Source: an uncultured Cohaesibacter sp.
GTDB lineage: Bacteria; Pseudomonadota; Alphaproteobacteria; Rhizobiales; Cohaesibacteraceae
Reading direction: 5' to 3'
DNA: 64,000 nucleotides
Assembly (NCBI RefSeq): GCF_963677725.1
Contig: NZ_OY782507.1
Span: forward strand, 4,384,171-4,448,170
How positions within the stretch are numbered: the first letter of the stretch is position 1; each line of letters opens with the position of its first letter. The notes under the pieces were generated by a model. The model was not told the DNA's origin and searched no databases. It saw only the letters and a list, made by a program, of their open reading frames with translations. Positions 42,167-55,244 of this stretch are shown here, piece after piece. The translations under genes and the position numbers were made by a program.

Positions 42167-42386
42167 TGTTTTTCGGGCATTGGAAAATCTTCCCGTCGAG
42201 CTTCTGGCGAATTTCTTTTTCTTTTCAGTTTGTTACCCGATTGTCTGTTGTTGCGAGCGGGGCGTGGGCGGCTATTTGCTGGCTTTTCTGAACTGTCAGT
42301 CTCGATTCATTTTTGCAAGAATATTGACAAAATATATTTCATGATGAAAAACTTGCAAATACCTGTTGGCATCTGATTGGGAAACG

Positions 42387-43271
42387 ATGAGCAAAACCAA
42401 TTCTCTTTATGAAAGGTTGAGTGAGGCGGCAGAGGTGGGGTCGAAATCCCATTGCGCGATTGCACGCTTCATGCTCGCCCGTTTCAAGGATTTGCCGTTT
42501 GAAACTTCCGCTTCGCTTGCTGACAAGGTTCAGGTGAGCGAGGCGAGCATCGGGCGTTTTTGCCGGGCCATCGGTTATGCCAATCTCAAGGATCTCAAAG
42601 ATCACCTCAAGGATGATATTGGCAACCAGCCCTGGCTGATCAAGGATCGGCTGGATGCCCTGCGCGCGGCTCCGGGCAAGCGCGAAGAGCGCTTGTCGGA
42701 CGGTTTGCAGGCGGAAATGGCCAGTCTGGTCTCCGTCTATGAAATGGCGCGGAGTGATGAATGGCAACGATGTGTTGACCGGCTCGTCCGCTGCCCGCAG
42801 GTTTATATCACTGGCTTTCAGACCGAGCGCGGTTTGGCAGCCTATTTTGCCCATCAGCTCAATTATGTCCGACCCGGTGTTCATTTGCTCGATCTGTCCG
42901 ACGGTAATTTTGCCGAACTGTTGGCCGCTGACGGGGAGCGCTGTCTGGCGATCTTTGAAGCGCGGCGTTATTCGCGACAGGCATTTGTTCTGGCGCGTGA
43001 GGCCAAGGCAAATGGCATCGCGGTCAGCCTGTTCACCGATCATTTTTGCGACTGGGGAGGTGATCTCAGCGATGAGCGCTTTATGGTCGCGACACAATTC
43101 CATCAATTCTGGGATTCAACCGCTCACTTGGCTTTGCTCTGCAATCTGATGATCAATGACATTTTTCTGGCGCTTGGCGACGAGGCGGAAAAACGCCTTG
43201 ATCATGTCTCGCGCCTTTATGGTGCCTTTACCGGCCATGTGGGCAATCCGCTGGTCCCGATTTCCGAATAA
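42387..43271 (+). CDS. MurR/RpiR-family transcriptional regulator
   Basis: RpiR-family proteins couple an N-terminal helix-turn-helix to a C-terminal SIS domain that usually senses phosphosugars. The product has 294 residues from ATG 42387; the HTH is at about 40-70 (ASLADKVQVSEASIGRFCRAIGY) and the SIS-like region covers about 130-265. It lies 53 bases before a binding-protein gene in the same direction, so it probably controls the downstream binding protein-racemase-acyltransferase genes. Its ligand may be unusual, since the operon is not a sugar operon. Confidence 0.9.
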   Translation: MSKTNSLYERLSEAAEVGSKSHCAIARFMLARFKDLPFETSASLADKVQVSEASIGRFCRAIGYANLKDLKDHLKDDIGNQPWLIKDRLDALRAAPGKREERLSDGLQAEMASLVSVYEMARSDEWQRCVDRLVRCPQVYITGFQTERGLAAYFAHQLNYVRPGVHLLDLSDGNFAELLAADGERCLAIFEARRYSRQAFVLAREAKANGIAVSLFTDHFCDWGGDLSDERFMVATQFHQFWDSTAHLALLCNLMINDIFLALGDEAEKRLDHVSRLYGAFTGHVGNPLVPISE

Positions 43272-43324
43272 CAAACAAAACAGGACAAAGTCCGATCTCA
43301 TCCTCCTCACCGAAAGGGAACATT

Positions 43325-44101
43325 ATGTCGAAATTTTTGAAACTATTGAGCGCTGGCCTGCTGCTGGCAGGTCTTGCCACCAGCGCATCCGCCGAAAGCC
43401 TGCGTCTTGGCACGGAGGGCGCCTATCCTCCATTCAATTATACCACTGCGGACGGCAAGATTGAGGGCTTTGACGTTGAAATCGGTCTTGAGCTTTGCAA
43501 GCGGATCGGTGCTGACTGTGAAGTGGTCGGACAGGACTGGGACGGTATTATTCCCGGCCTGATCGCCAAGAAATATGACTTCATTATCGCTTCGATGTTC
43601 ATCACCGAAGAGCGCAAAAAGAAGGTCTCCTTCACCGATCCTTATTATATGGCAGCAATGACCCATGTGGTGCCAAAGGAAAGCAAGATCACCGAATTCA
43701 CCGCTGAATCGATGAAAGGCAAAGTGATCGGTGCTCAGTCTGCCACCACGCAGGCCGACTTTGCTGCCAAAGTTTATCCAGATGCGGAACTGAAACTTTA
43801 TCCCACGCAGGATGAGGCCAATCTGGATATGACCGCAGGGCGTCTTGATGTGATGGTTGGCGACATGCTGCCTCTGCTTGATTTCCTTGAAAAGACCGAT
43901 GGTGGCAAATGCTGCAAGCTCGCTGGTGATCCGATTACCGATCCAAAATTTGTCGGTGAAGGCGTTGGTATCGCTGTGCGGCAGGAAGACAATGATCTGC
44001 GCGAGCGTCTGAACAAGGCTCTGGCTGAAATCCGCGCTGATGGCACTTACCAGAAGATCAACGACAAATATTTCTCCATCGATGTCTATACGATGAAATA
44101 A
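43325..44101 (+). CDS. Amino acid ABC transporter periplasmic binding protein
   Basis: A family 3 solute-binding protein (ArgT/HisJ-like) of 258 residues, with signal peptide MSKFLKLLSAGLLLAGLATSASA (cleaved near residue 23), the LRLGTEGAYPPFNY start and GFDVEIGLELCKRIG. It resembles binders of basic or polar amino acids; specificity cannot be read. No permease or ATPase gene is in the window, so it must share a transporter encoded elsewhere or act otherwise. GAAAGGGAAC precedes the ATG. Two hairpins follow it. Confidence 0.92.
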   Translation: MSKFLKLLSAGLLLAGLATSASAESLRLGTEGAYPPFNYTTADGKIEGFDVEIGLELCKRIGADCEVVGQDWDGIIPGLIAKKYDFIIASMFITEERKKKVSFTDPYYMAAMTHVVPKESKITEFTAESMKGKVIGAQSATTQADFAAKVYPDAELKLYPTQDEANLDMTAGRLDVMVGDMLPLLDFLEKTDGGKCCKLAGDPITDPKFVGEGVGIAVRQEDNDLRERLNKALAEIRADGTYQKINDKYFSIDVYTMK

Positions 44102-44153
44102 TCCGCTTTGGCGGATGACAGGCCTTCCCGGCGGGCGTTGCTTGCCGGGAAGG
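44101..44153 (+). promoter_or_regulatory. Two intercistronic stem-loops after the binding protein
   Basis: ATCCGC-tttg-GCGGAT (44101-44116) and a 10-bp perfect stem CCTTCCCGGC (44123-44132) / GCCGGGAAGG (44144-44153) fill the gap to the racemase gene. Such stems after binding-protein genes often protect the upstream message and give more binding protein than enzyme; here that is inference. Confidence 0.55.
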
Positions 44154-44226
44154 ACCAACATTTCCAACACATGCCCGCCGCGTTGCGTCTTCTGCGGCCT
44201 GAAGCGGGTGTAAAAAGGTGGAATCG

Positions 44227-45354
44227 ATGGCTACGCATTTTCAGGGCATAACAATATCTGAGGCTGAATTGCGAATTGTCAGTTTGCCCTTGATCACGCC
44301 GTTCGTTGTGTCGAACCAGACGATGACGGACAAGGTCTTTCCGCTACTGATCTTGCGGGCAGACGGGGTCGAGGGCTACGCGGAAGCTGTGATGGATCCG
44401 TTGCCGGACTATCTGGAAGAGACGATCCCCGGTGCGATGGCCTTTTTGAAAGATCTGATCCTGCCGCAAATTGTCGGCAAAGCCTTTTCTTCGCCAGCTG
44501 AGCTGAACCAGTTGCTTGCTCCATGGCGGGGGCACAGGATGAGCAAGGCCGTGGTGGAAATGGCCTTCTGGGATCTGTGGTGCAAGGCGCTTGATGTGCC
44601 ATTGAAGGCGGCCTTGGGCGGGATTCGCGACGCTGTGCCGGTTGGCGTTTCCATTGGTATTGCGTCAATCCCTGAGACTTTGGAGCGGATCACCATTGCC
44701 AATGAAGCGGGCTACAAGCGCACCAAACTGAAGATAGCACAAGGCCATGATCTGGCTTTGTTGGAGGCGGTGCGGGCGCAATATCCTTCAATCAAGCTGA
44801 CGGTGGATGCCAACACGGCCTATGGGTTGGCCGACCTAGCGATCTTGCGGGCAATGGATGCGTTTCAGCTTGATTATATCGAGCAGCCGTTGGCGGTGGA
44901 TGACATTCACGACCACGCGATTGTGCAGCGATCGATTGAAACGGCCATTTGCCTTGATGAATCCATTCGCACGCCAGCCGACTGCCGCAAGGCGTTGGCG
45001 TCAGAGGCTGCACGGGTGATCAATATCAAGGTCGGGCGGGTCGGTGGCTATGAGGCGGCACGAGCCATTCATGATGTGTCTGAAGCCTTCGGTGCTCCGG
45101 TCTGGTGTGGTGGCATGTTGGAGAGCGGCATTGGCCGGGCGCATAACATCCATCTGGCCAGCCTGCCCAATTTCACCAAGCCGGGGGATACCTCTTCCTC
45201 CAGCCGCTATTTCAAGCGCGACATCATCAATGAACCGCTCGAAGCAACAGATGGCTTGATGCCGGTGCCTATGGATGGGCCGGGTCTTGGTGTGTCTCTG
45301 GACTGGGCCTTCCTTGATACAGTCACCCGGTCAAAGGAAAGGATCGCTTCGTGA
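44227..45354 (+). CDS. Enolase-superfamily N-acyl/N-succinyl amino acid racemase-like enzyme
   Basis: A MLE-subgroup enolase of the OSBS/NAAAR family. ATG 44227 gives 375 residues; GTG 44218 is an alternative. All catalytic residues are visible: KxK Lys167 and Lys169, metal ligands Asp194 (VDANTAY), Glu219 (YIEQP), Asp244 (CLDES) and the second base Lys268 (INIKVGRVGG). They match the Lys163-Asp189-Glu214-Asp239-Lys263 set of Amycolatopsis NAAAR with a constant shift. Coupling to a GNAT (next gene, 4-base overlap) argues for N-succinyl-amino acid racemase rather than menaquinone synthesis. Confidence 0.88.
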   Translation: MATHFQGITISEAELRIVSLPLITPFVVSNQTMTDKVFPLLILRADGVEGYAEAVMDPLPDYLEETIPGAMAFLKDLILPQIVGKAFSSPAELNQLLAPWRGHRMSKAVVEMAFWDLWCKALDVPLKAALGGIRDAVPVGVSIGIASIPETLERITIANEAGYKRTKLKIAQGHDLALLEAVRAQYPSIKLTVDANTAYGLADLAILRAMDAFQLDYIEQPLAVDDIHDHAIVQRSIETAICLDESIRTPADCRKALASEAARVINIKVGRVGGYEAARAIHDVSEAFGAPVWCGGMLESGIGRAHNIHLASLPNFTKPGDTSSSSRYFKRDIINEPLEATDGLMPVPMDGPGLGVSLDWAFLDTVTRSKERIAS

Positions 45355-46076
45355 CATATGGTGCAAGCGGAGAGGATATTGTTCTGCGTGAGCTTTCCGG
45401 CATTGCCGAGATGCAACATTCCGAGGCCTTCCAGATTGAAGCCTGGGGGGAGGGGGAGAAGCCGGACAATGCGGACATTCTGATGGCCTTGCAGTCCGAA
45501 GGGGGACTGGTGGCCGGAGCCTTTCGAGGCGATGAGATGCTTGGCTTTCTGCTTGGCTTTCCAACCGTCACGCCGGGCTTACAGCATTCTCACAGGCTGG
45601 CGGTCAAGCCCACTTTGCGGGGAGTGGGGCTTGGGGCAAAGCTGAAATGGTTCCAGCGTGACTGGTGCCTTGCACGCGGTGTGACCCAAGTGCGCTGGAC
45701 CTATGATCCCCTGCGGGCGGTGAATGCGGGCCTCAATATCGGCGTGCTGGGCGCTGTGGTGCGCGATTATTATGTCGATTATTATGGTGCGATGCCGGGG
45801 ATGAATGCGGGGCTGCCCTCCGACCGGATCATGGCGGTCTGGTATCTGGACAGCGAACGGGTCGCGGCGCGGGCGAAAGCCGAAGGAGCTGCTCCGCAAG
45901 ATGTAGCAACAGAAAAGGTCTCAATCCCGCGCGACATCGATGCCCTGTTGGCCGAAGACCCGGACGCTGCACTGGCCGAGCGCTTGCGGGTGCGTGACGC
46001 ACTGCAAATGGCTTTTCATTCGGGGCGCCAGATTGTCGGCTTTGACAAGGCAAGCTGCTCCTATCATCTGGCCTGA
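45351..46076 (+). CDS. GNAT-like acyltransferase (COG3375 type), racemase partner
   Basis: The 241-residue protein starts at GTG 45351, overlapping the racemase by 4 bases. It has an acetyl-CoA-fold core with SHRLAVKPTLRGVGLGAKLKWFQR (about 81-104), the R-x-x-G-x-G/A acyl-CoA loop, then RWTYDPLRAVNAGLNIGVLGAV. In other bacteria this GNAT type is known next to N-succinyl amino acid racemases, where it N-succinylates D-amino acids using succinyl-CoA. Substrate assignment here rests on that pairing. Confidence 0.85.
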   Translation: MTYGASGEDIVLRELSGIAEMQHSEAFQIEAWGEGEKPDNADILMALQSEGGLVAGAFRGDEMLGFLLGFPTVTPGLQHSHRLAVKPTLRGVGLGAKLKWFQRDWCLARGVTQVRWTYDPLRAVNAGLNIGVLGAVVRDYYVDYYGAMPGMNAGLPSDRIMAVWYLDSERVAARAKAEGAAPQDVATEKVSIPRDIDALLAEDPDAALAERLRVRDALQMAFHSGRQIVGFDKASCSYHLA

Positions 46077-46121: not shown

Positions 46122-47006
46122 TCAGGCACTTTCGAGATAGTCGTTGAGATGAGATGTGATGGTCTCAACGATGCTTCTGGTCGGCGCGCTCTCCACATAG
46201 GAGGCCGTGAAAGAGAGATCCTTGAGCATTACGTCGGTATTCAATTCCACCAGACGGCCGTCTTTCAATTCGTCATGGACAATGATTTTCGGCAGCGCGC
46301 AGATGCCATAGCCAGCGCATGTCAACTCACGCAGGGCGCCAATCGACGTTGAGGTGCTGATATTGAGCGGCCCTTCGTGGCTGGAGGATAGAAGGGTCTG
46401 GATTTCCTTGCCTGGACGGCTGGAGCGGGAAAAGGTCAGCAGGCGGTGGGCGGCGAGATCGCTGACGTGCCACCGCTCATGTTCGCTGGCAATGGCCTTG
46501 GTGGCAGCAAAAATCATTTCATAGCCACAAATGGGCTGGTTGCTGATGCTTGCCTCGGACACTGGCCCCATCAGAAAGGCAAGGTCGGCATCACGCGCCA
46601 GAAGCGCATTGCGCAAATTGTTTGTGGTATCGACCGACAGTTCGAAGGCAATGCCGGGGATGACTTTGCCGACATAGGCCAGAAAGTCCGGCAACCAGCT
46701 GCAGGCGATGGTTTCGGCCGCTCCCAGACGGATGGTCTGGATGATGCGGGTTGTTTCGGAAAAGCTGTCGAGGATCTGCTGGTCTAGCGCCATCAGCTTT
46801 TCGGCATAGGGGAAGAGCTTGCGCCCTGCGGGCGTCAGAGTCGCGTTACGCACATCGCGCTGGAAGACCTCGACGCCTAGATCCTGTTCCAAAATCTGAA
46901 TGCGGGCGGAGACGGCGGGCTGGGTCAAATGCAGATGCTTGGAAGCGGAGCGGAAGCTGCCCAAGGTCGCGACCCAGTAGAATGTGTCTATATTTCTGAC
47001 TTTCAA
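46122..47006 (-). CDS. LysR-family transcriptional regulator
   Basis: The 294-residue protein has a winged HTH at residues 1-60 (TLGSFRSASKHLHLTQPAVSARIQILE) and a substrate-binding domain from about 90. It starts at TTG 47004-47006; no ATG with the family N-terminus exists. It is divergent from the DUF1445-TRAP unit, and the 129-base shared region contains a palindrome fitting a LysR site. Thus it is the likely regulator of that unit. It converges with the GNAT gene. Confidence 0.93.
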   Translation of the reverse strand: MKVRNIDTFYWVATLGSFRSASKHLHLTQPAVSARIQILEQDLGVEVFQRDVRNATLTPAGRKLFPYAEKLMALDQQILDSFSETTRIIQTIRLGAAETIACSWLPDFLAYVGKVIPGIAFELSVDTTNNLRNALLARDADLAFLMGPVSEASISNQPICGYEMIFAATKAIASEHERWHVSDLAAHRLLTFSRSSRPGKEIQTLLSSSHEGPLNISTSTSIGALRELTCAGYGICALPKIIVHDELKDGRLVELNTDVMLKDLSFTASYVESAPTRSIVETITSHLNDYLESA

Positions 47007-47042
47007 GGGAAATTGCCAAGTTGGAGGGACGGATTAATCGAG

Positions 47043-47080
47043 ATGATAAAAATAATCTATCATGGAATGATAAAAATATC
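47043..47080. promoter_or_regulatory. Candidate LysR operator in the divergent region
   Basis: ATGATA-N9-TATCAT (47043-47063) is a perfect interrupted palindrome of T-N11-A type. Directly downstream a second ATGATAAAAATA repeat at 47067-47078 contains GATA-N4-TATC. This fits the two-site (recognition and activation) layout of LysR regulators. Confidence 0.6.
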
Positions 47081-47135
47081 GATTTGATTTTTCCAACGGT
47101 TTTGGCATGCTGGTTTTCAATAAGGGAAAATCTGC

Positions 47136-47945
47136 ATGTTTGATTATGAAGTGCTGAAATCGAAGGCCCCGCAGGCTTTGCGTCAGATCATCCGGGATGG
47201 GCAGTATCAGGCTCATACGGCTGGTCTGGCGAAGGGATATCTGCAAGCCAACCTGATGATATTGCCAAAGACTTATGCGCTTGACTTCATGCGCTTTTGC
47301 CAGCGCAATCCCAAGCCATGTCCCTTGATCGCGGTCTCTGACACCGGCAATCCATTTTTGGAGACGGCGGGCTTGGATATTGACATTCGCACGGATGTGC
47401 CTGCCTACAACATTTATCGTGATGGCCAACTGGCAGAGCAGGCCCATGACATATCGTCGCTATGGGATGACGAAATGGTGACTTTTGCGCTTGGTTGTTC
47501 CTTCACCTTTGAACATGCCCTGCTGGAAGCGGGCATCGATGTCTGGCATATTAGCAACAACACAACCGTGCCGATGTTCAAGACGTCGATTGAAACGGTG
47601 CCTGCAGGGGCTTTTTCCGGTGAGACGGTTGTCTCCATGCGGATGATCCCGCAAGATCGGGTTGAAGAGGTTTATGCCATTTGTCGGCAGTTCCCGCTGG
47701 CTCATGGGGCTCCCCTTCATGCCGGCGATCCAGCAGCCATCGGCATCAAGGATTTGATGCAGCCAGACTGGGGTGACATGGCGCCGAGCCAGCCCGGCTG
47801 TGTCCCTGTTTTCTGGGCTTGCGGTGTCACGCCGCAGGTCGCCATCAGAGCCGCCAAACTGCCACTTAGTATTGCGCACAAGCCGGGTCACATGCTGGTG
47901 ACCGATATACCGGACGGTGCTGAAATACCAATAATGAAACAATAA
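47136..47945 (+). CDS. D-glutamate cyclase-like / putative hydro-lyase (DUF1445)
   Basis: The 269-residue protein belongs to the DUF1445 family (UPF0317). It has the motifs TFALGCSFTFEHALLEAGI (about 112-130) and NNTTVPMFKT (about 140-149), plus the C-terminal GVTPQVAI and KPGHMLVTDI. The mammalian mitochondrial relative converts D-glutamate to 5-oxo-D-proline; the bacterial reaction is mostly untested. ATG 47136 follows AAGGGA. It leads the TRAP operon, so it likely acts on an imported substrate. Confidence 0.85.
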   Translation: MFDYEVLKSKAPQALRQIIRDGQYQAHTAGLAKGYLQANLMILPKTYALDFMRFCQRNPKPCPLIAVSDTGNPFLETAGLDIDIRTDVPAYNIYRDGQLAEQAHDISSLWDDEMVTFALGCSFTFEHALLEAGIDVWHISNNTTVPMFKTSIETVPAGAFSGETVVSMRMIPQDRVEEVYAICRQFPLAHGAPLHAGDPAAIGIKDLMQPDWGDMAPSQPGCVPVFWACGVTPQVAIRAAKLPLSIAHKPGHMLVTDIPDGAEIPIMKQ

Positions 47946-48085
47946 TAATTCACCACTCAGACCCTGTTCGGCAGGTCCACCAAAGCGGGCAATCCGGATG
48001 GGTACCAGATTAACAAAATGGCATGATCACGCTTCCTTTCCGGGGGTGAATGTCATGCTTTCAGGGGAAAGACACGGAGCATCCA

Positions 48086-49123
48086 ATGAAAAAGTTTCTA
48101 CTCGCCTTCACCGCAGCCGCGGCCCTTTCTGCACCGGCAGCAGCCGAGCAACTCAATGTGGTTGGTAGCTGGTCAAGCCTGCCTCTTTACAAGGCTTATG
48201 AAGCGCCATTCTGGGGTAAAACCTTGCCTGAGGCCTCTGATGGCAAAATCACCCCGCAGGTGACGACCCACAACGAGATGAATCTGGGCGTGGCTGACGT
48301 GTTCCGTCTGCTGGGGCAGGGCGTCTATGACGTGGCAATGACCGTTGGTGACTATGCTGTCTCGGACGCTCCTGAATTGGAAGGTCTTGATGTGCCTCTG
48401 GTGGCCATGGATGCTGACAAGGCCAAGGCAGCAGTCGACGCCGCCCGTCCGATGGTTGAGGAAATTTTCACCAACCGCTTCAATTCCAAACTTCTGGCGA
48501 TTGCGCCCTATCCACCGCAGGTTGTCTTCTGCAACAAGGAAGTGTCCAAACTTGACGATCTAGCAGGGCTGAAAGTGCGCGCCTCTGGCCGTATGACCGC
48601 TAAATTCCTTGAAGCTCTTGGGGCCGAAGGCGTCAATGTGGCTTTCTCCGAAGTGCCGGGTGCCTTGCAGAAAGGCGTTGTGGACTGTGCTGTGACCGGC
48701 GCTGGTTCGGGCTATAGCGCTGGCTGGTGGGAAGTCTCCACCCATCTGCTGACCATTCCGCTTGGCGGCTGGGATCCGGTGGTGACCGCGATGAATATGG
48801 ACAAATGGAAGTCGCTTGATGCCGACACCCAGAAGCTGATCATGGATCAGATTTCGGCCAATTTCGAAGCCCCGGCATGGGAAGACGCGCAAGGCGCATT
48901 GGTCAATGACATTGCCTGCCTGACCGGAAATGGTGACTGCAAATCCGGTGACAAACGCTCGATGGTTCTGGTTGAGGCTTCCGAGGCTGATATTGCCAAG
49001 GCACGCGAAATCCTTGAAAGCAAGGTTCTGCCAGAATGGGCCGAACGTGCAGGTGGTGACTGGGCCAAGCGCTGGAATGACAGCGTGGGTAAGGTTGTCG
49101 GCGTTTCCATCCCAGCCAAGTAG
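48086..49123 (+). CDS. dctP: TRAP transporter substrate-binding protein (DctP family)
   Basis: The 345-residue protein has a Sec signal peptide MKKFLLAFTAAAALSAPAAA and a DctP fold with the GLKVRASGRMTAKFLEALGA segment, whose Arg usually binds a carboxylate. ATG 48086 follows ACGGAG; an in-frame ATG at 48050 would spoil the signal peptide. DctQ and DctM follow directly. Substrate class is predicted as a carboxylated compound; it cannot be named. Confidence 0.94.
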   Translation: MKKFLLAFTAAAALSAPAAAEQLNVVGSWSSLPLYKAYEAPFWGKTLPEASDGKITPQVTTHNEMNLGVADVFRLLGQGVYDVAMTVGDYAVSDAPELEGLDVPLVAMDADKAKAAVDAARPMVEEIFTNRFNSKLLAIAPYPPQVVFCNKEVSKLDDLAGLKVRASGRMTAKFLEALGAEGVNVAFSEVPGALQKGVVDCAVTGAGSGYSAGWWEVSTHLLTIPLGGWDPVVTAMNMDKWKSLDADTQKLIMDQISANFEAPAWEDAQGALVNDIACLTGNGDCKSGDKRSMVLVEASEADIAKAREILESKVLPEWAERAGGDWAKRWNDSVGKVVGVSIPAK

Positions 49124-49133
49124 GATTTGAGTG

Positions 49134-49694
49134 ATGCTTGAGGACAAGGCAGAACGCATCCTACTCGCCATACGGCAATGGAATAGACGGATTGCTATGG
49201 CCACCGGCTTGATGCTGTTGGCGTGTGCCGGACTGGTGCTGGTGGATATCACCATGCGCCAGCTTGGCACCTCCCTTGGTGGGACAGACGAGATTTCCGG
49301 CTATGTCATGGCGATTGCAACGGCTTGGGGAATGAGTTTTGCTCTGACCGAGCTCTCTCATGTACGCATCGATTTTCTGCGGAGTGCTGCTCCGCGGAAA
49401 ATCCGCATCTTTTTCGATTTGCTGGCACTGCTTACCCTTGCGGTGACGGTGGCGGTGATTGCCAAACAATGCTGGCCGGTGGTGGCGACTTCCCTGAAGA
49501 ATGCCTCCACGGCCAATACGCCGCTTGAAACTCCTCTATCGTGGGTTCAGATCCCCTGGTTTGCGGGCTGGATCTGGTTTGCAATATCGAGTTGGCTGGT
49601 GTTTATGGCTGCGTCGATATTGGTGATCAAAGGGCGCTTTGCCAAGGTTGACCAAACCATCGGCATTGCCAGCGCGCAGGAGGAATGGCTGTGA
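49134..49694 (+). CDS. dctQ: TRAP transporter small permease (DctQ)
   Basis: DctQ is the four-helix membrane subunit of TRAP transporters. The product has about 186 residues with four hydrophobic segments (about 20-42, 53-75, 92-112, 133-158). The GTDEISGYVMAIATAWGMSFAL segment is typical. ATG 49134 has AGGA 7 bases upstream; GTG 49131 is also possible. It ends in GTGA, shared with dctM. Confidence 0.92.
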   Translation: MLEDKAERILLAIRQWNRRIAMATGLMLLACAGLVLVDITMRQLGTSLGGTDEISGYVMAIATAWGMSFALTELSHVRIDFLRSAAPRKIRIFFDLLALLTLAVTVAVIAKQCWPVVATSLKNASTANTPLETPLSWVQIPWFAGWIWFAISSWLVFMAASILVIKGRFAKVDQTIGIASAQEEWL

Positions 49695-50974
49695 TCCCGT
49701 TTATCTCCATTGGCCTTCTGGGGCTGCTTTCGCTCTCCATTCCTGTTGGCATCGTGCTGTTTTTGCTCGGTTTCGGGATCGATCAGTTTTTCAGTTTCTT
49801 CCCGCTGTTGCGTGGTCTGGGCAATATGGTCTGGTCGACATCCAACAGTGCCACCCTGATTGCCATTCCCTTTTTCGTTCTGTTGGGGGAAGTGCTGGTG
49901 CGCAGTGGCATCGCCGAACGCACCTATTCAGCGCTCGACAAATGGGTGTCGTGGATGCCCGGCGGGCTCATCCATGCCAATGTGGCCACCGCCACGATGT
50001 TCTCGGCAACCTCTGGCTCGTCGGTGGCGACGGCTGCGACGGTTGCAACCGTTGCCATGCCGCAAGCGGACCGGCTGGGTTATGATCCGAAACTCTTTTC
50101 CGGCGCGATTGCGGCGGGGGGGACATTGGGGATCATGATCCCGCCATCGATCAATCTGATCGTTTATGGGTTTCTGACCCAAACCTCGATCCCGCAATTG
50201 TTTCTTGCCGGTTTGTTGCCCGGTGTCATTCTGGCGGTCGGTTTCATGGCTGCGACGGCGGGGCTTTGCACCATCTGGCCGCAGTTGGGTGGGAAAAGGC
50301 GCACCTTCCCGCTGAAGGTGATGATTGGTGGTTTGGCAGAATTGATGCCCATTGTGCTGTTATTCTCGGCCATCATTGGCGCGATCTACAAGGGTTGGGC
50401 CACGCCGACCGAAGCGGCTTCTGTCGGGGTCGGTGGCGCCCTGGTGATTGCCATGATGTTCGGGGGTGTGTCTTGGCGGATGCTGGCGGACAGCATGATT
50501 GGCACGGTCAAGGTGACCTCGATGATCATGCTGGTGATCATTGGCGCCTCATTCCTCAACTTCACCCTGTCTGCGGCCGGTCTCAGTCAGGAAATGCGCA
50601 ACATTCTCGACAATCTCGGGGTGGGGCCCTTGTTGACCATTCTGGTTGTGGTGCTGGTCTATATCGTGCTCGGATTTTTCATCGAGACCCTGTCTTTGAT
50701 GGTGGTGACAATCCCGATTGTCGTGCCGATTGTCACGGGGCTTGGCTATGACCCGGTCTGGTTCGGTATCCTGATGATCGTTCTGATCGAAATGGCGCTC
50801 ATCACACCGCCCGTTGGCCTCAATCTCTATGTGGTTCAGGGGGCACGGAAAAGCGGCAACATGAGCGAAGTGATGTTGGGGGCGGCTCCCTATGCCCTGA
50901 TCATGCTGGTCATGGTGGGCGTGTTGATAGCCTACCCGGATCTGGCGTTGATCCTGCCACGGCTGCTGCAATAG
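49691..50974 (+). CDS. dctM: TRAP transporter large permease (DctM)
   Basis: DctM carries the sodium-coupled transport path. I prefer GTG 49691 (427 residues, MIPFISIGLLGLL) because AGGAGGA lies 6 bases before it and it makes a GTGA overlap with dctQ; ATG 49685 is too near the RBS. About 11-12 helices and the family segments GGLIHANVATATMFSATSGS and TLGIMIPPSINLIVYG are visible. It completes the DctPQM set. Confidence 0.94.
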   Translation: MIPFISIGLLGLLSLSIPVGIVLFLLGFGIDQFFSFFPLLRGLGNMVWSTSNSATLIAIPFFVLLGEVLVRSGIAERTYSALDKWVSWMPGGLIHANVATATMFSATSGSSVATAATVATVAMPQADRLGYDPKLFSGAIAAGGTLGIMIPPSINLIVYGFLTQTSIPQLFLAGLLPGVILAVGFMAATAGLCTIWPQLGGKRRTFPLKVMIGGLAELMPIVLLFSAIIGAIYKGWATPTEAASVGVGGALVIAMMFGGVSWRMLADSMIGTVKVTSMIMLVIIGASFLNFTLSAAGLSQEMRNILDNLGVGPLLTILVVVLVYIVLGFFIETLSLMVVTIPIVVPIVTGLGYDPVWFGILMIVLIEMALITPPVGLNLYVVQGARKSGNMSEVMLGAAPYALIMLVMVGVLIAYPDLALILPRLLQ

Positions 50975-50996
50975 GCTCAAAACAAAGGAAATGGCA

Positions 50997-51650
50997 ATGC
51001 AATTTGAATGCAATGGGACGGCGATTGATGTCGCCGTTGACCAGCTGATTGTGGCTGGATGGACTGGACGCAATATTGATGCGGTTCAGCATCATATCGA
51101 CGAATTGGCGGCCATCGGTGTTGCGCCTCCGACCGAGGTGCCGCTCTATTATCGAGTGTCGAATGCCTTGTTGATGCAGGATGATGTCATTCAGGTGCTG
51201 GGCGAGGAAAGCTCTGGCGAAGTGGAACCGCTGATCCTGCAAGTGGCTGGCACGCTTTATCTCGGTCTTGGCTCTGACCATACGGACCGGGGACTTGAGG
51301 CCCATTCGGTGGCAGCGTCAAAGCAGATTTGCGCCAAGCCGGTGGCCTGTGAGGTCTGGGTCTTTGATGAGGTGGCCGATCATCTCGACCAGATTGAGCT
51401 TAAATGCTCGATCAGGGAAGAGGGCGCTTGGGTGCCTTATCAGGATGGCACTTTGGCGAGCATCCGTCCGCTGGCGGAGTTGATGAAAGGCGCGCACTTT
51501 GCCGACAATATGGCGATGCTCTGTGGCACCCTTGGCGCCATTGGCGGGGTGCGCCCGGCCTCTGACTATAAAATGGAAATGGTCGATCCGGTGCTTGGCC
51601 GAACCATTGGCTTTTCTTATAAGGCAAACAGCCTGCCAGTGATCAGCTAA
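50997..51650 (+). CDS. DUF2848 protein
   Basis: The 217-residue protein matches the DUF2848 family as I know it: VAGWTGRNIDAVQHHIDELAAIGVAPP near the start, a LGSDHTDRGLEAHSVAASKQ core, and MLCGTLGAIGGVRPA. The function is unproven; the family is commonly found with amidases and TRAP transporters. ATG 50997 is favoured over 50991 because AAAGGAA ends at 50990. It lies 22 bases after dctM. Confidence 0.85.
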   Translation: MQFECNGTAIDVAVDQLIVAGWTGRNIDAVQHHIDELAAIGVAPPTEVPLYYRVSNALLMQDDVIQVLGEESSGEVEPLILQVAGTLYLGLGSDHTDRGLEAHSVAASKQICAKPVACEVWVFDEVADHLDQIELKCSIREEGAWVPYQDGTLASIRPLAELMKGAHFADNMAMLCGTLGAIGGVRPASDYKMEMVDPVLGRTIGFSYKANSLPVIS

Positions 51651-51669
51651 CCAAATCTACGAATTATCA

Positions 51670-51690
51670 GCGCCGGGCATGTCCCGGCGC
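51670..51690 (+). promoter_or_regulatory. Hairpin between the DUF2848 and amidase genes
   Basis: GCGCCGGG-catgt-CCCGGCGC is a perfect 8-bp GC stem, followed by TTCGTTTG rather than a real U run. It may reduce or stabilise read-through into the amidase gene. Confidence 0.5.
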
Positions 51691-51736
51691 TTCGTTTGAG
51701 CGTCTGTCCGTGTGCGACTGTGCGAAGGAGTGAAAT

Positions 51737-53029
51737 ATGTCAAATCCGTTTGAATGGTCGGCCTCATCGGCATCGAGCCGCCTTGATGAGACAATCGCGC
51801 GTGTTGCGGCAGACACCAAGGACGTGCGCCATATTTTCACCCAGTGTTTCTTTGATGAAGCACGGGAGCAAGCCGCTTCAGTAGCGGACTTTGATGATGA
51901 TGCTTCTTCCTTGGCGGGGGCTTTGGTGACGATCAAGGATTTGCTTGATGTGAAGGGGCAGGTCACCAAGGCAGGTACGCGTTTCATGGCCAATGATCCT
52001 GAGGCTGAGGCTGATGCCGATGTTGTGGCACGATTGCGACAGGCCGGTGCGGTCCTGCTTGGCCATACCAATATGACGGAACTTGCCTATTCCGGGCTGG
52101 GGCTTAATCCGCATTATGGCACGCCGATGAATGCCTTGATTGACGGGGCCATTCCCGGTGGGTCAACCTCTGGCGGCGCGGTCAGTGTGGCGCGTGGGCT
52201 TGCTGATATCGCGATTGGCACTGATACCGGTGGTTCCTTGCGTATTCCGGCGGCCTTCAACGGCATTGTCGGGTTCAAGCCGAGCCAGAAGACCGTGTCC
52301 CGGGCAGGCTGCAAACCCTTGTCGCGAAGCCTTGATAGCATCGGGCCAATGGGGCGCAGTGTTGCGGCTTGTGCCGGTGCCTATCGGGTGATTGCCGATC
52401 AGGACCAGTTGCAGGAACCGGAAAGGGCGCTGCTTGCGGATTTTGTCGTGCCTACCAACTATGGCATGGATGATCTGGCACCAGAAGTCGCTGCGGCCTT
52501 TGCTGCTTGCCTCGAAGATCTGCGCGCACGCGGCTACAAGGTGTCTGAGCTGGCGCTGGAGAGCCTTGAGGCGCTCAAGTCCCTGCCGATCTGGCAGTTC
52601 TCTTCCATCGAGTCCCGCTCCGATTATGATGAGGTCTACCAGACAAAACGCGACATGATGGATCCACGGGTCGCCGGGCCAACCCGGATGGGGCGGGCGG
52701 ACGAGGTGGATGCGGTTTCCTATCGCAAGACCCTGAACGAACGCGAGCGGCTGATTGCTTGCTTTGCGGAAGAGCTTGGCAACCGAATTCTCTTGATGCC
52801 AACGGTGCCGATCCTGCCGCCAAGTTTTGCCGAGCTGGAAAAGGACGAGGATTATTCCCGCCTCAATCTGCAGGTTTTGCGCAATCCTTCGATTGCCAAT
52901 GTCATGGATTGCTGCAGCATTTCGCTTCCCATCAGCCAAAAGGGCATGCCGGTTGGTTTGATGCTGACGGCGCTATCCGGGTCTGATCTGAGCTTGTTGG
53001 CGCTGGCAGAAACCATCCATGGCAGCTGA
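51737..53029 (+). CDS. Amidase-signature hydrolase
   Basis: The 430-residue enzyme belongs to the amidase signature family that hydrolyses amides with a Ser-cisSer-Lys triad. I see Lys67 (TIKDLL), cis-Ser143 (GGSTSGG) and nucleophile Ser167 (GTDTGGSLRIP), with the family 24-residue spacing between the serines. GAAGGAG precedes ATG 51737. It closes the TRAP unit and could hydrolyse the amide or N-acyl bond of the imported compound; the substrate is unknown. Confidence 0.92.
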   Translation: MSNPFEWSASSASSRLDETIARVAADTKDVRHIFTQCFFDEAREQAASVADFDDDASSLAGALVTIKDLLDVKGQVTKAGTRFMANDPEAEADADVVARLRQAGAVLLGHTNMTELAYSGLGLNPHYGTPMNALIDGAIPGGSTSGGAVSVARGLADIAIGTDTGGSLRIPAAFNGIVGFKPSQKTVSRAGCKPLSRSLDSIGPMGRSVAACAGAYRVIADQDQLQEPERALLADFVVPTNYGMDDLAPEVAAAFAACLEDLRARGYKVSELALESLEALKSLPIWQFSSIESRSDYDEVYQTKRDMMDPRVAGPTRMGRADEVDAVSYRKTLNERERLIACFAEELGNRILLMPTVPILPPSFAELEKDEDYSRLNLQVLRNPSIANVMDCCSISLPISQKGMPVGLMLTALSGSDLSLLALAETIHGS

Positions 53030-53145: not shown

Positions 53146-53667
53146 ATGTTCAAAAAGATTGCTGTTCTTCTGGGGTTGGTTTTCGCCCTGCCTGCTGCTG
53201 CCAATACTGTGCCTGAAGACATAAAACGCCAACTGCAAGCGCCGGAGAAAATCGGGGAAGTGAACGTGCGCTTTCTCGGTATTCGGATGTATGACGCAGC
53301 GCTCTTCACCAAGGCGGGCGGGGCCTTTCGGTGGTCGCGTCCCTTTGCGCTGGAACTAACCTATGCCCGCAGCTTCAGTCGGGACCGGTTGATCAAAGCG
53401 TCCCTGTCCGAGCTTGAGCGGATGGAAGGAGACCAATCTGACCATCAGGTGATTGGTAACAAGCTTGAAAGCTGTTTTCGCAACGTTCGGTCATCCGATC
53501 GGTTTGTGGCGATACCCAAGGGGCGCAATCAGGTGAACTTTTACTTCAATGGTCGCCAGACCTGCGCCTTGCAGCATTCGGCCATTCGCGAGCGCCTGCT
53601 CGGCCTCTGGTTGTCCGACGCAGCCCGTGATCGCCGCTTGAGCCGGTTGCTGCGCGGGCTTGACTGA
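53146..53667 (+). CDS. Exported chalcone isomerase-like protein
   Basis: The 173-residue protein has a signal peptide (MFKKIAVLLGLVFALPAAA) and a chalcone-isomerase-like fold: VRFLGIRMYDAALFT (about 41-55), FALELTYARSFSRDRLIKAS, and QVNFYFNGRQTCAL. Bacterial relatives are exported, with no proven isomerase activity. It is monocistronic, 116 bases after the amidase and 170 before mgtE. Confidence 0.85.
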   Translation: MFKKIAVLLGLVFALPAAANTVPEDIKRQLQAPEKIGEVNVRFLGIRMYDAALFTKAGGAFRWSRPFALELTYARSFSRDRLIKASLSELERMEGDQSDHQVIGNKLESCFRNVRSSDRFVAIPKGRNQVNFYFNGRQTCALQHSAIRERLLGLWLSDAARDRRLSRLLRGLD

Positions 53668-53837
53668 GTATTGGAATCATCTCGCGACAATGGTTGGTTC
53701 AATTTCTCGTGCTTTGACAGGGTACAACGTCAATCCATGCGTAAAATTGCTAAATGAGATGAAATCGGACTTGATGTTGTAGGGCGAATTGCGGCACAAG
53801 GGGGAGAGATTAACAGCAGCAGCAGGGAGGAATTGAG

Positions 53838-55244
53838 GTGCAAGTGAGTCTTCTTGAACCAACTACCAACCCTGCATGGTCCGAAGTGCGTGACGAGCGC
53901 GGGATCATTTCAGCGGAATTTTTCCATCAGATCGATGAGGCGATTGAAGCGCAGGATAGCGACCTGCTGCTGAGCCTGACGCAGGATCTGCACGAAGCTG
54001 ATATGGGCGATATCATCGAGGCGCTGAGCCCGAAGAATCGTACTGAATTCCTTGAACTGCTGGGGAGTGATTTTGACTTCACCGCGCTGGTGGAGCTTGA
54101 TGATTCCCTGCGTCAAAAGGTTGTCGAAGGCCTCGCCAATGACTTTATCGCTGAAGGGATCAGCGAACTCGATTCAGATGATGCGGTTGTCATCCTCGAG
54201 GATATGGAGGAAGGGGACCGGGCGGAGATTTTGGCCGCTTTGCCGGCAATGGACCGGATCCAGCTGTCTCGCTCCCTTGACTATCCCGAAGATTCAGCCG
54301 GGCGACGGATGCAGACGGATTTTATCGCCGTCGCGCCTTTCTGGACCATTGGTCAAACCATCGACTATATGCGAGAGACGCCCAACCTACCGGACGAGTT
54401 CAACCAGATCTTTGTGATTGATCCCGGGCACCGTTTGCTTGGCACCGTGTCGCTCGATACCTTGCTGCGATCCAGACGACCGACCAAGATTTCCGAAATT
54501 CAGCATGAAGAGCGCCATTATGTGATGGCGACGCAGGATCAGGAAGAAGTGTCGCGTCTGTTCGAGCGCTACGACTTGCTGTCCGCCGCTGTGCTGGACG
54601 AGGGAGAGCGTCTTGTCGGCGTCATCACCATTGATGATATCGTTGACGTCATCCATGAAGAAGCCGAAGAAGACATTAAACGATTGGGTGGTGTTGGTGA
54701 CGAGGAAATCACCGATACGGTGCTTGAGACGGTCAAGTCGCGCTTCACCTGGTTGTCGGTCAATTTGGTCACCGCCATTTTGGCATCCTGGGTGATTGCC
54801 CTGTTTGACGCGACCATTCAAAAGATGGTGGCGCTTGCGGTGTTGATGCCGATTGTCGCCTCGATGGGTGGGAATGCAGCCACACAGACCATGACTGTCG
54901 CAGTGCGCGCCTTGGCAACTCAGGAACTGGACAGTTTCAACGTTTTGCGCGTTGTCTCGCGTGAGGTGTTGGTGGCGGTGCTCAATGGCTTTGCCTTTGC
55001 GTTGATCCTTGGCACCGTTGCCGCTTTCTGGTTCTCAAACTATCAGTTGGGGATAGTGATTGCCGTCGCTCTGGTGGTCAATCTTTTCTGTGCGGGTCTT
55101 TCTGGTATCCTTATACCGCTTGGTTTGCAGAAGGTCGGGGTCGATCCTGCCATTGCGTCGTCAGTCTTCATCACCACGGTCACCGATGTGGTTGGATTTT
55201 TCGCCTTTCTAGGTCTTGCCGGTTGGTGGTTCGGACTGCTCTGA
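53838..55244 (+). CDS. mgtE: Magnesium transporter MgtE
   Basis: MgtE is a Mg2+-gated Mg2+ channel in the inner membrane. The product is 468 residues from GTG 53838: acidic N domain (about 25-135), two CBS domains (about 140-265) and five transmembrane helices (about 290-468) with MPIVASMGGNAATQTMTVAVRALA, the pore signature. GGGAGG lies upstream. It is alone; no Mg2+ riboswitch is evident in the 170-base gap. Confidence 0.96.
   Translation: MQVSLLEPTTNPAWSEVRDERGIISAEFFHQIDEAIEAQDSDLLLSLTQDLHEADMGDIIEALSPKNRTEFLELLGSDFDFTALVELDDSLRQKVVEGLANDFIAEGISELDSDDAVVILEDMEEGDRAEILAALPAMDRIQLSRSLDYPEDSAGRRMQTDFIAVAPFWTIGQTIDYMRETPNLPDEFNQIFVIDPGHRLLGTVSLDTLLRSRRPTKISEIQHEERHYVMATQDQEEVSRLFERYDLLSAAVLDEGERLVGVITIDDIVDVIHEEAEEDIKRLGGVGDEEITDTVLETVKSRFTWLSVNLVTAILASWVIALFDATIQKMVALAVLMPIVASMGGNAATQTMTVAVRALATQELDSFNVLRVVSREVLVAVLNGFAFALILGTVAAFWFSNYQLGIVIAVALVVNLFCAGLSGILIPLGLQKVGVDPAIASSVFITTVTDVVGFFAFLGLAGWWFGLL

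Follow-up and report, generated by a model that had tools for sequence, protein, structure and literature searches.

Which compound is taken up and degraded by a bacterium that joins, in one row of genes, a transporter of the tripartite ATP-independent periplasmic (TRAP) type, a putative hydro-lyase of the DUF1445 family, a DUF2848 protein and an amidase? The question is raised by seven neighbouring genes in a 64,000-nucleotide stretch (the window, positions 4,384,171-4,448,170) of the genome of an uncultured Cohaesibacter sp., which comprises 4.63 Mb on a single contig. The reading favoured here, with a probability of slightly less than one half (about 0.48), is an inducible, LysR-controlled operon for the uptake and catabolism of a gamma-lactam acid of the 5-oxoproline type, in which an enzyme of the fumarylacetoacetate hydrolase (FAH) type and an amide hydrolase would release ammonia. 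The seven genes are the following:

46122-47006, minus strand: LysR-type regulator, TTG start, divergent from the operon; Pfam HTH_1 and LysR_substrate (3.3e-30)
47136-47945, plus strand: DUF1445 / UPF0317 "putative hydro-lyase"; PF07286 (D-Glu_cyclase) 2.5e-61; NF003969 391 bits, cut-off 324
48086-49123, plus strand: DctP-type TRAP solute receptor; PF03480 1.7e-22; the reading frame opens at 48050, and the ATG at 48086 fits the relatives
49131-49694, plus strand: DctQ, small TRAP permease; PF04290 2.4e-18
49685-50974, plus strand: DctM, large TRAP permease; PF06808 1.3e-77; TIGR00786 above the cut-off
50991-51650, plus strand: DUF2848 protein, predicted FAH-fold enzyme; PF11010 9.9e-74; candidate ligands E77, E79 and D96, candidate catalytic K111
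51737-53029, plus strand: amidase-signature enzyme; PF01425 5.8e-77; triad K67/S143/S167

The initial annotation had named the same genes; all seven open reading frames were confirmed at their coordinates, and each of the proteins exceeded its Pfam cut-off. The amidase triad that it had described as intact was found as well (Lys-cisSer-Ser, with K67 in VTIKDL, S143 in PGGSTSGGA and S167 in GTDTGGS), which assigns the protein to the amidase-signature enzymes. The genes for DUF1445 and DctP are separated by 104 or 140 bases, depending on the start, and from DctP onwards the distances are 7, -10, 16 and 86 bases. The genome contains one DUF2848 gene and likewise one copy of DUF1445. The grouping of the seven genes exceeds chance, and the same order recurs in plasmids of Thioclava and Paracoccus.

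FAH fold and metal-type motif of DUF2848

The computations showed that DUF2848 has a predicted FAH fold and an ExE...D motif of the metal-binding type. The AlphaFold2 model of the window protein reached a predicted local distance difference test (pLDDT) value of 95.6 and a predicted template modelling (pTM) score of 0.91. Comparison of the model with the PDB by Foldseek yielded 25 matches at E<=0.001, of which 20 were chains of named FAH-superfamily enzymes and the remaining five were chains of two putative proteins (3rr6, 4qku), while the 26th match (E 0.03) was an unrelated protein. The named matches were Cg1458, which we take to be an FAH-superfamily enzyme, fumarylpyruvate hydrolase, 2-keto-3-deoxyarabinonate dehydratase, FAHD1, maleylpyruvate hydrolase, 9kkt (a 2-keto-3-deoxy sugar-acid enzyme) and FAH. 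The identity across the 25 matches was 9-17%, and a sequence search of the PDB with DUF2848 gave no match. Also the Pfam model FAA_hydrolase touched only 6 of 48 DUF2848 members at E<=10 (best 4.5e-4), and the window protein was not among them.

A direct comparison with hhalign, using a profile of nine FAH proteins from the window genome and relatives, resulted in an E-value of 1.7e-8 and a probability of 95.4, and paired SGEVEP with DWEVEL and SDHTDRGLE with NDISERSFQ. The DUF2848 alignment comprised 48 proteins, i.e., the window protein and those of 47 of 49 loci from a contig scan; a truncated gene (L046) and one with an internal stop (L049) were left out and were retained in the neighbourhood counts given below. 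The interrupted frame lies at L049:4460-5062 on the contig of an actinobacterial metagenome-assembled genome (MAG). Invariant in all 48 sequences were, among others, G76, E77, E79, S95, D96, H97, T98, D99, R100, G101, L102 and E103, and further K111, Q112, K116, Y150, Q151, G179 and T180. E77, E79 and D96 are aligned to the ExE...D motif, the residues of which are presumably the metal ligands in FAH enzymes. K111 is a candidate for the catalytic lysine because of its invariance, yet hhalign placed a gap at this position. FAH enzymes hold a carboxylate and an enol or 2-oxo group via a divalent metal.

DUF2848 thus shares the fold, the ExE...D motif and a GT-containing C-terminal segment with Cg1458, FAHD1, fumarylpyruvate hydrolase and 2-keto-3-deoxy-D-arabinonate dehydratase, but it differs from them in its low identity, in the weak FAA_hydrolase signal, in its own signature SDHTDRGLE and in the frequent presence of an amide hydrolase as partner. 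It had initially been annotated as a family without known role. The literature search agrees, as DUF2848 was named in no paper that it found; the fold, in turn, moves the protein into the FAH superfamily and links it to a concrete reaction class. Catabolic operons that are fed by a TRAP transporter and include an FAH-type enzyme are already familiar as a class. The FAH assignment and the fused protein and exchange of amide hydrolases described below appear to be new within the literature searched, which was not searched under other names.

Amide hydrolases as partners of DUF2848

The neighbourhood was compared in 76 DUF2848 loci, 49 from the contig scan, which was seeded with the window protein, and 27 stretches from further relatives that belong to the same phylum as the window genome. 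Owing to the seed, the loci sample the relatives of the window protein and not all of DUF2848. Neighbours were called on either strand by tblastn with single representatives, by which distant members are missed. Amide hydrolases and cupins were counted up to a limit of 2 kb, DUF1445, TRAP genes and HpaB-type monooxygenases up to 6.5 kb, and hydantoinase-type enzymes and pxpA up to 8 kb. Near-duplicate species were kept in the counts, and in 14 of the 76 loci one flank was shorter than 5 kb. The family (PF11010) was present in 21 of the 299 genomes of a phylum sample, in 7 of 20 genomes of the taxonomic family and in none of 14 control genomes.

The commonest partner of DUF2848 is an amide-bond hydrolase, either an amidase or a nitrilase. 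An amidase-signature gene was found in 20 of the 76 loci, a nitrilase gene in 29, and one or the other in 49; cupin genes were found in 17. Together with hydantoinase/oxoprolinase-type enzymes (4/76) and pxpA (4/76), some amide- or lactam-splitting enzyme was present near DUF2848 in 54 loci. The 62 loci with 5 kb or more on each side of DUF2848 served as a positional control: 41 matches to amide hydrolases were located at <=2 kb, 1 at 2-5 kb and 5 beyond. DUF1445 was near DUF2848 in 32 loci, DctM in 44 and both in 31. The initial annotation had proposed, as a test, to see whether DUF1445, DctP and amidase accompany DUF2848 in other genomes; co-occurrence was confirmed for DUF1445 and TRAP genes in the 31 loci, and the association with the amidase proved to be real but not constant.

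Nitrilase was the partner in 26 of 26 loci of Bacillota and in 3 of 3 loci of Actinomycetota; in the single planctomycete it lay 4 kb away, and it was found within 2 kb in none of the 41 proteobacterial loci. All five Chloroflexota loci lacked both an amidase and a nitrilase. As a side observation, these loci (L043, L044, L045, L047, L048) contained two cupin proteins, one small and one larger, and no amide hydrolase was found near DUF2848. In one MAG of the Acidimicrobiales both activities may be combined in one chain, as L050:6871-8331 encodes a fused protein of 486 amino acids with a CN_hydrolase domain (34-246) and a DUF2848 domain (285-477), flanked by genes for a molybdenum hydroxylase, a cupin and a branched-chain ABC transporter. 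This protein is a ready test object.

The two types of amide hydrolases were also found in the same setting. Loci of Bacillus and Peribacillus contain an HpaB-type monooxygenase, a nitrilase, DUF2848 and a cupin, and a plasmid of Caballeronia NK8 carries a flavin reductase, an HpaB-type enzyme, a cupin, an amidase, a receptor and DUF2848, which suggests that nitrilase and amidase do an equivalent job. The nitrilase partner belongs to the branch of the nitrilase superfamily that contains the omega-amidase NIT2. The PDB matches of the L040 nitrilase were headed by 3p8k, followed by archaeal and other nitrilases, with YLR351C of yeast sixth and 2w1v (nitrilase homolog 2) seventh of nine. Its best NCBIfam model was NF007757, which we take to represent the omega-amidase family of E. 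coli YafV, and the 156.9 bits lay below the cut-off of 249, so that the protein did not score as an omega-amidase. In contrast to the relatives, the window has an unrelated amidase-signature enzyme in this place. A further gene, for an Ldh_2-family dehydrogenase, was seen between DctM and DUF1445 in L040 and in two other loci of haloalkaliphilic bacilli (L038, L041); it could oxidise the imported acid.

An obligatory role of the amidase was rejected, because a close amidase was found in only 3 of the 7 DUF2848-positive genomes of the taxonomic family. A search for a nitrilase elsewhere in the genome as a substitute was uninformative: all 20 genomes of the family have a nitrilase-type protein at E<=1e-15, and the replacement can thus not be judged by its presence.

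The oxygenases in some of these loci bear on a different explanation, namely that several N-heterocycle pathways (those of pyrrole-2-carboxylate and hydroxypyridines) differ in their upper enzymes but converge on DUF2848 and an amide hydrolase, and that the window bacterium imports a ready-made heterocyclic acid. Seven of the 76 loci have an HpaB-type monooxygenase at a distance of up to 6.5 kb from DUF2848, and in two plasmids such an enzyme was accompanied by a flavin reductase. A molybdenum hydroxylase together with a luciferase-like monooxygenase (LLM)-type enzyme was detected in L050 by family models, and in L030 by clustering with the L050 proteins. A review of such enzymes (PMC6165268) has a two-component pyrrole-2-carboxylate monooxygenase among its references, and the pathways of nicotine and 2-hydroxypyridine finish with a 2-oxoglutaramate amidase, as is stated in a section of PMC6214936. 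However, the window cluster contains no oxygenase, and activity on such substrates is evidenced for none of the neighbours. The explanation is therefore regarded as rather unlikely for the window.

The variable presence of the amidase within the genus might also mean that the genes are mere neighbours without a common pathway. This is very improbable: the core of DUF1445, DctPQM and DUF2848 recurs in loci of alpha- and betaproteobacteria, in most cases together with LysR, and a palindrome upstream of the operon is conserved (see below).

Plasmids agreed with the neighbourhood counts. A tblastn search detected DUF2848 in 56 of 72,556 plasmid records; 13 were inspected, 12 of which were annotated. 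In 10 of these 12 an amidase or nitrilase gene adjoined DUF2848 or was two genes off. In a Sulfitobacter plasmid a gene of the hydantoinase B/oxoprolinase family adjoined it, and in the plasmid of Bradyrhizobium 187 neither an amidase or nitrilase nor a hydantoinase-type gene was found beside it. The core of LysR, hydro-lyase (DUF1445), TRAP trio and DUF2848 was present in 5 of the 12. A link to phages was not found: phage records gave no match, and viral contigs no confirmed one.

A lactam acid as candidate substrate

The importer was the first source of evidence for the substrate. By sequence, the window DctP matched 2pfz best among the PDB entries (3.5e-16; 62 bits), and 2pfz was again first in a profile search (6.7e-23), with 4n4u close behind. 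By fold, 2pfy was first (1.6e-20), 4n4u and sialic-acid receptors were almost level, and 2pfz and 6wgm had ranks 34 and 40, respectively. The PDB titles of 2pfy (DctP7) and 2pfz (DctP6) give pyroglutamic acid as ligand, and that of 6wgm calls the protein specific for pyroglutamate. According to a section of PMC13274462 (2026), both Bordetella pertussis proteins were solved with 5-oxoproline, and DctP7 has a dissociation constant (KD) of 0.3 uM. Shared with 2pfz in the alignment are the Q in PPQ, the R in (V/W)R and one G-(Y/F) pair, but the window DctP is only about 21% identical and, unlike the Bordetella proteins, is clustered with DUF1445 and DUF2848. It thus appears to be closest, albeit weakly, to the pyroglutamate-binding receptors. 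This likeness and the co-occurrence support the earlier proposal that the locus serves the catabolism of a carboxylated amide or lactam. The relatives of 2pfz in the family of genome G196 were dropped as a pointer to a characterised gene, because receptors of this type had matches in 293 of 299 genomes and are too widespread there to mark one.

The second source was the gene content next to related clusters. In L085, L087 and L088 the cluster runs on, past a gene of the old-yellow-enzyme type, into genes that were read as pxpA, pxpB and pxpC, i.e., genes for 5-oxoprolinase. For L087 the old-yellow-enzyme-type gene was identified by Pfam, one extra open reading frame precedes the pxp genes, PxpA and PxpB were above the cut-offs of their family models, and PxpC was assigned to the 5-oxoprolinase/urea amidolyase family. 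In two Thioclava plasmids pxpA, a gene of the 5-oxoprolinase/urea amidolyase family, a biotin carboxylase gene and an NRAMP transporter gene lie next door on the opposite strand. Five other plasmids carried DUF1445 without DUF2848 in view; in three of these pxp genes lay no more than about 6 kb away, and one had DUF4392 nearby. Hydantoinase/oxoprolinase-type enzymes, a superfamily that includes OPLAH and caprolactamase, work on closed rings. In both L004 and L007 the large enzyme is a fusion of hydantoinase A and B, which likely hydrolyses lactams, as judged from sequence; the best NCBIfam models were caprolactamase subunits, below the cut-off. Genes of both kinds flank the same cluster in relatives, but in the window cluster no pxpABC or OPLAH-type gene was found by Pfam search. 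Taken together, the receptor and the neighbours point to an acid of the 5-oxoproline type, and no single line is decisive.

Another reading of the same evidence would be an ATP-independent route for L- or D-5-oxoproline itself, in which DUF2848 and the amidase, or DUF1445 in reverse, hydrolyse the lactam to glutamate and replace 5-oxoprolinase. The similarity of DctP to pyroglutamate receptors would fit, and in five clusters (L002, L004, L005, L007 and the Sulfitobacter plasmid) a hydantoinase-type enzyme was present and no amidase or nitrilase was found within 2 kb, as if the enzymes had been swapped; in L002 and L007, contig ends truncate the cluster. However, pxpABC and the amidase coexist in L085, L087 and L088, as do pxp genes and the amidase in the two Thioclava plasmids, and the window genome has pxpABC elsewhere. 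Furthermore, no FAH enzyme is known to open an unactivated lactam, which counts against this route as well. It is thus judged to be unlikely.

The favoured operon for a 5-oxoproline-type acid could work as follows. The substrate would be pyroglutamate or an oxidised form, e.g., 2-hydroxy-5-oxoproline, the ring form of alpha-ketoglutaramate. DctP would bind the acid and DctQM would take it into the cell, as suggested by family and similarity. DUF1445, judged from its class, may add water to the ring or remove it. DUF2848, as a putative divalent-metal enzyme of the FAH superfamily, would act on an enol or 2-oxo-carboxylate intermediate by hydration, ring opening or isomerisation. The amidase would then cleave the open-chain amide, releasing ammonia and leaving a dicarboxylate, in the simplest case 2-oxoglutarate. 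In relatives, its place would be filled by a nitrilase or a hydantoinase/oxoprolinase-type enzyme, or be vacant.

Several results weigh against such an operon. Twenty-two of the 76 loci, some of which are cut by contig ends, had no amidase, nitrilase, hydantoinase-type enzyme or pxpA within the limits, and the five Chloroflexota loci with cupins only are among these 22. Among the proteobacterial loci, 20 of 41 had an amidase no farther than 2 kb away. Close amidase orthologues (>=70%) were found in 3 of the 20 genomes of the taxonomic family, exactly those whose cluster includes the amidase; a paralogue of 37-39% is all that G307, G308 and G312 have, and G317 has none at E<=1e-60. For DctP the match is distant (62 bits, about 21% identity), and sialic-acid and other receptors score nearly as well. 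The hydantoinase-type proteins fit caprolactamase models best and thus need not be 5-oxoprolinases. Last, the window genome has its own pxpABC at 3.80 Mb, 0.6 Mb off, next to apparent panC and panB genes (judged by eye), and plain L-5-oxoproline would therefore not require the enzymes of the operon. The family models agree for PxpA of this set, PxpC belongs to the 5-oxoprolinase/urea amidolyase family, and PxpB reached 143.6 bits (cut-off 145.55).

Alpha-ketoglutaramate fits an FAH enzyme, an omega-amidase and a pyroglutamate-type receptor together. As described in a part of PMC10452834, at physiological pH 99.7% of it is present as the lactam 2-hydroxy-5-oxoproline, omega-amidase accepts only the open form, and the opening is base-catalysed and slow near pH 7.2. 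A ring opening by DUF2848 is attractive for this reason. DUF2848 might open the inert ring of alpha-ketoglutaramate, or hydrate 5-oxo-pyrroline-2-carboxylate, and pass the open 2-oxo amide to the fused or adjacent nitrilase or amidase, a proposal that is itself doubtful. DUF2848 is still present where hydantoinase-type enzymes occur, so its function cannot be confined to opening rings for an amidase, and a role as isomerase or hydratase one step earlier is as likely. In the pathways of nicotine and 2-hydroxypyridine the 2-oxoglutaramate amidase is reached via other proteins that are proposed to act on the ring, as a section of PMC6214936 has it, and the same logic is thereby illustrated in a different setting. 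If DUF2848 indeed opened the ring, it would be an enzyme for a step described as base-catalysed and slow at neutral pH, and a new FAH chemistry where the catabolism of glutamine, pyroglutamate and N-heterocycles meets.

Regulation, D-glutamate and adjoining genes

In all five loci from the same genus (L099-L103) the LysR gene was on the opposite strand, at equal distance from the operon. In the annotated plasmids of Thioclava and Paracoccus it was not divergent, but on the same strand as the operon. The 129-base divergent region of the window contains two conserved elements:

47043-47063, no strand assigned: palindrome ATGATA-N9-TATCAT, probable LysR operator
47072-47092, no strand assigned: AT-rich block AAAAATATCGATTTGATTTTT, 21 bases

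The core of the palindrome, TGATAAAA...TATCA, was kept in 6 of 6 genus loci (the window and L099-L103), preceded in two of them by T instead of A. The pattern TGATA-N(9,10)-TATCA had one match in the whole window, compared with 0.02 expected, and the palindrome is a probable operator of the LysR protein. The AT-rich block was nearly invariant in the same six loci and is probably a promoter or an additional contact of the regulator. Across 44-54 kb of the window no riboswitch or other RNA reached the gathering score, and scans for promoters and terminators gave results at chance level.

The name of PF07286 and the genes directly upstream of the cluster would agree with a salvage of D-glutamate or D-amino acids, in which DUF1445 cyclises D-glutamate to 5-oxo-D-proline. 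The upstream row (42366-46076) consists of genes for an RpiR-like regulator and a lone amino-acid-type receptor, both identified by eye, an enolase-superfamily protein and a GNAT protein. The enolase-superfamily protein reached 309.5 bits with the model menC_lowGC (cut-off 200.65). N-acylamino-acid racemases likewise score on this model, and the row looks like an N-succinylation-type conversion of D- to L-amino acids. However, the genes for the N-succinylamino acid racemase (NSAR)-like protein and the GNAT protein are beside the cluster in only one of the five loci from the genus (L100, not L099 or L101-L103). N-acyl amino acids, which had been considered as substrates at first, find no support in the cluster.

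D-glutamate as the direct substrate, which had also been suggested, was rejected as a lead. The cyclase activity was reported for a mammalian protein with DUF1445 and DUF4392, which were assayed as one, according to a section of PMC5339696. The window protein has 269 amino acids and PF07286 only, and the second domain of the assayed protein is missing. DUF4392 (PF14336) was not found in the window genome, and the control genomes gave no match either. The solved relatives, 3db9 and 2pif, carry only UPF0317 as name. The label "D-glutamate cyclase" of bacterial DUF1445 proteins thus rests on a transferred name, and D-glutamate salvage by the window operon is improbable.

Two further observations were made next to the operon and elsewhere in the genome. 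At G000:C1:3428474-3431822 (L108:7475-10823) genes for an S-Me-THD-like protein, Hydantoinase_A and an AroM-family protein lie in a row beside peptide-type ABC genes; the first is of the thiohydantoin-desulfurase type, below the NCBIfam cut-off, and the row is a separate hydantoin-type locus of the window genome. Downstream of the amidase (53146-55244) genes were found for a small protein resembling chalcone isomerase, with a score under the Pfam cut-off, and for the magnesium transporter MgtE, and counterparts of both genes follow the amidase also in L100.

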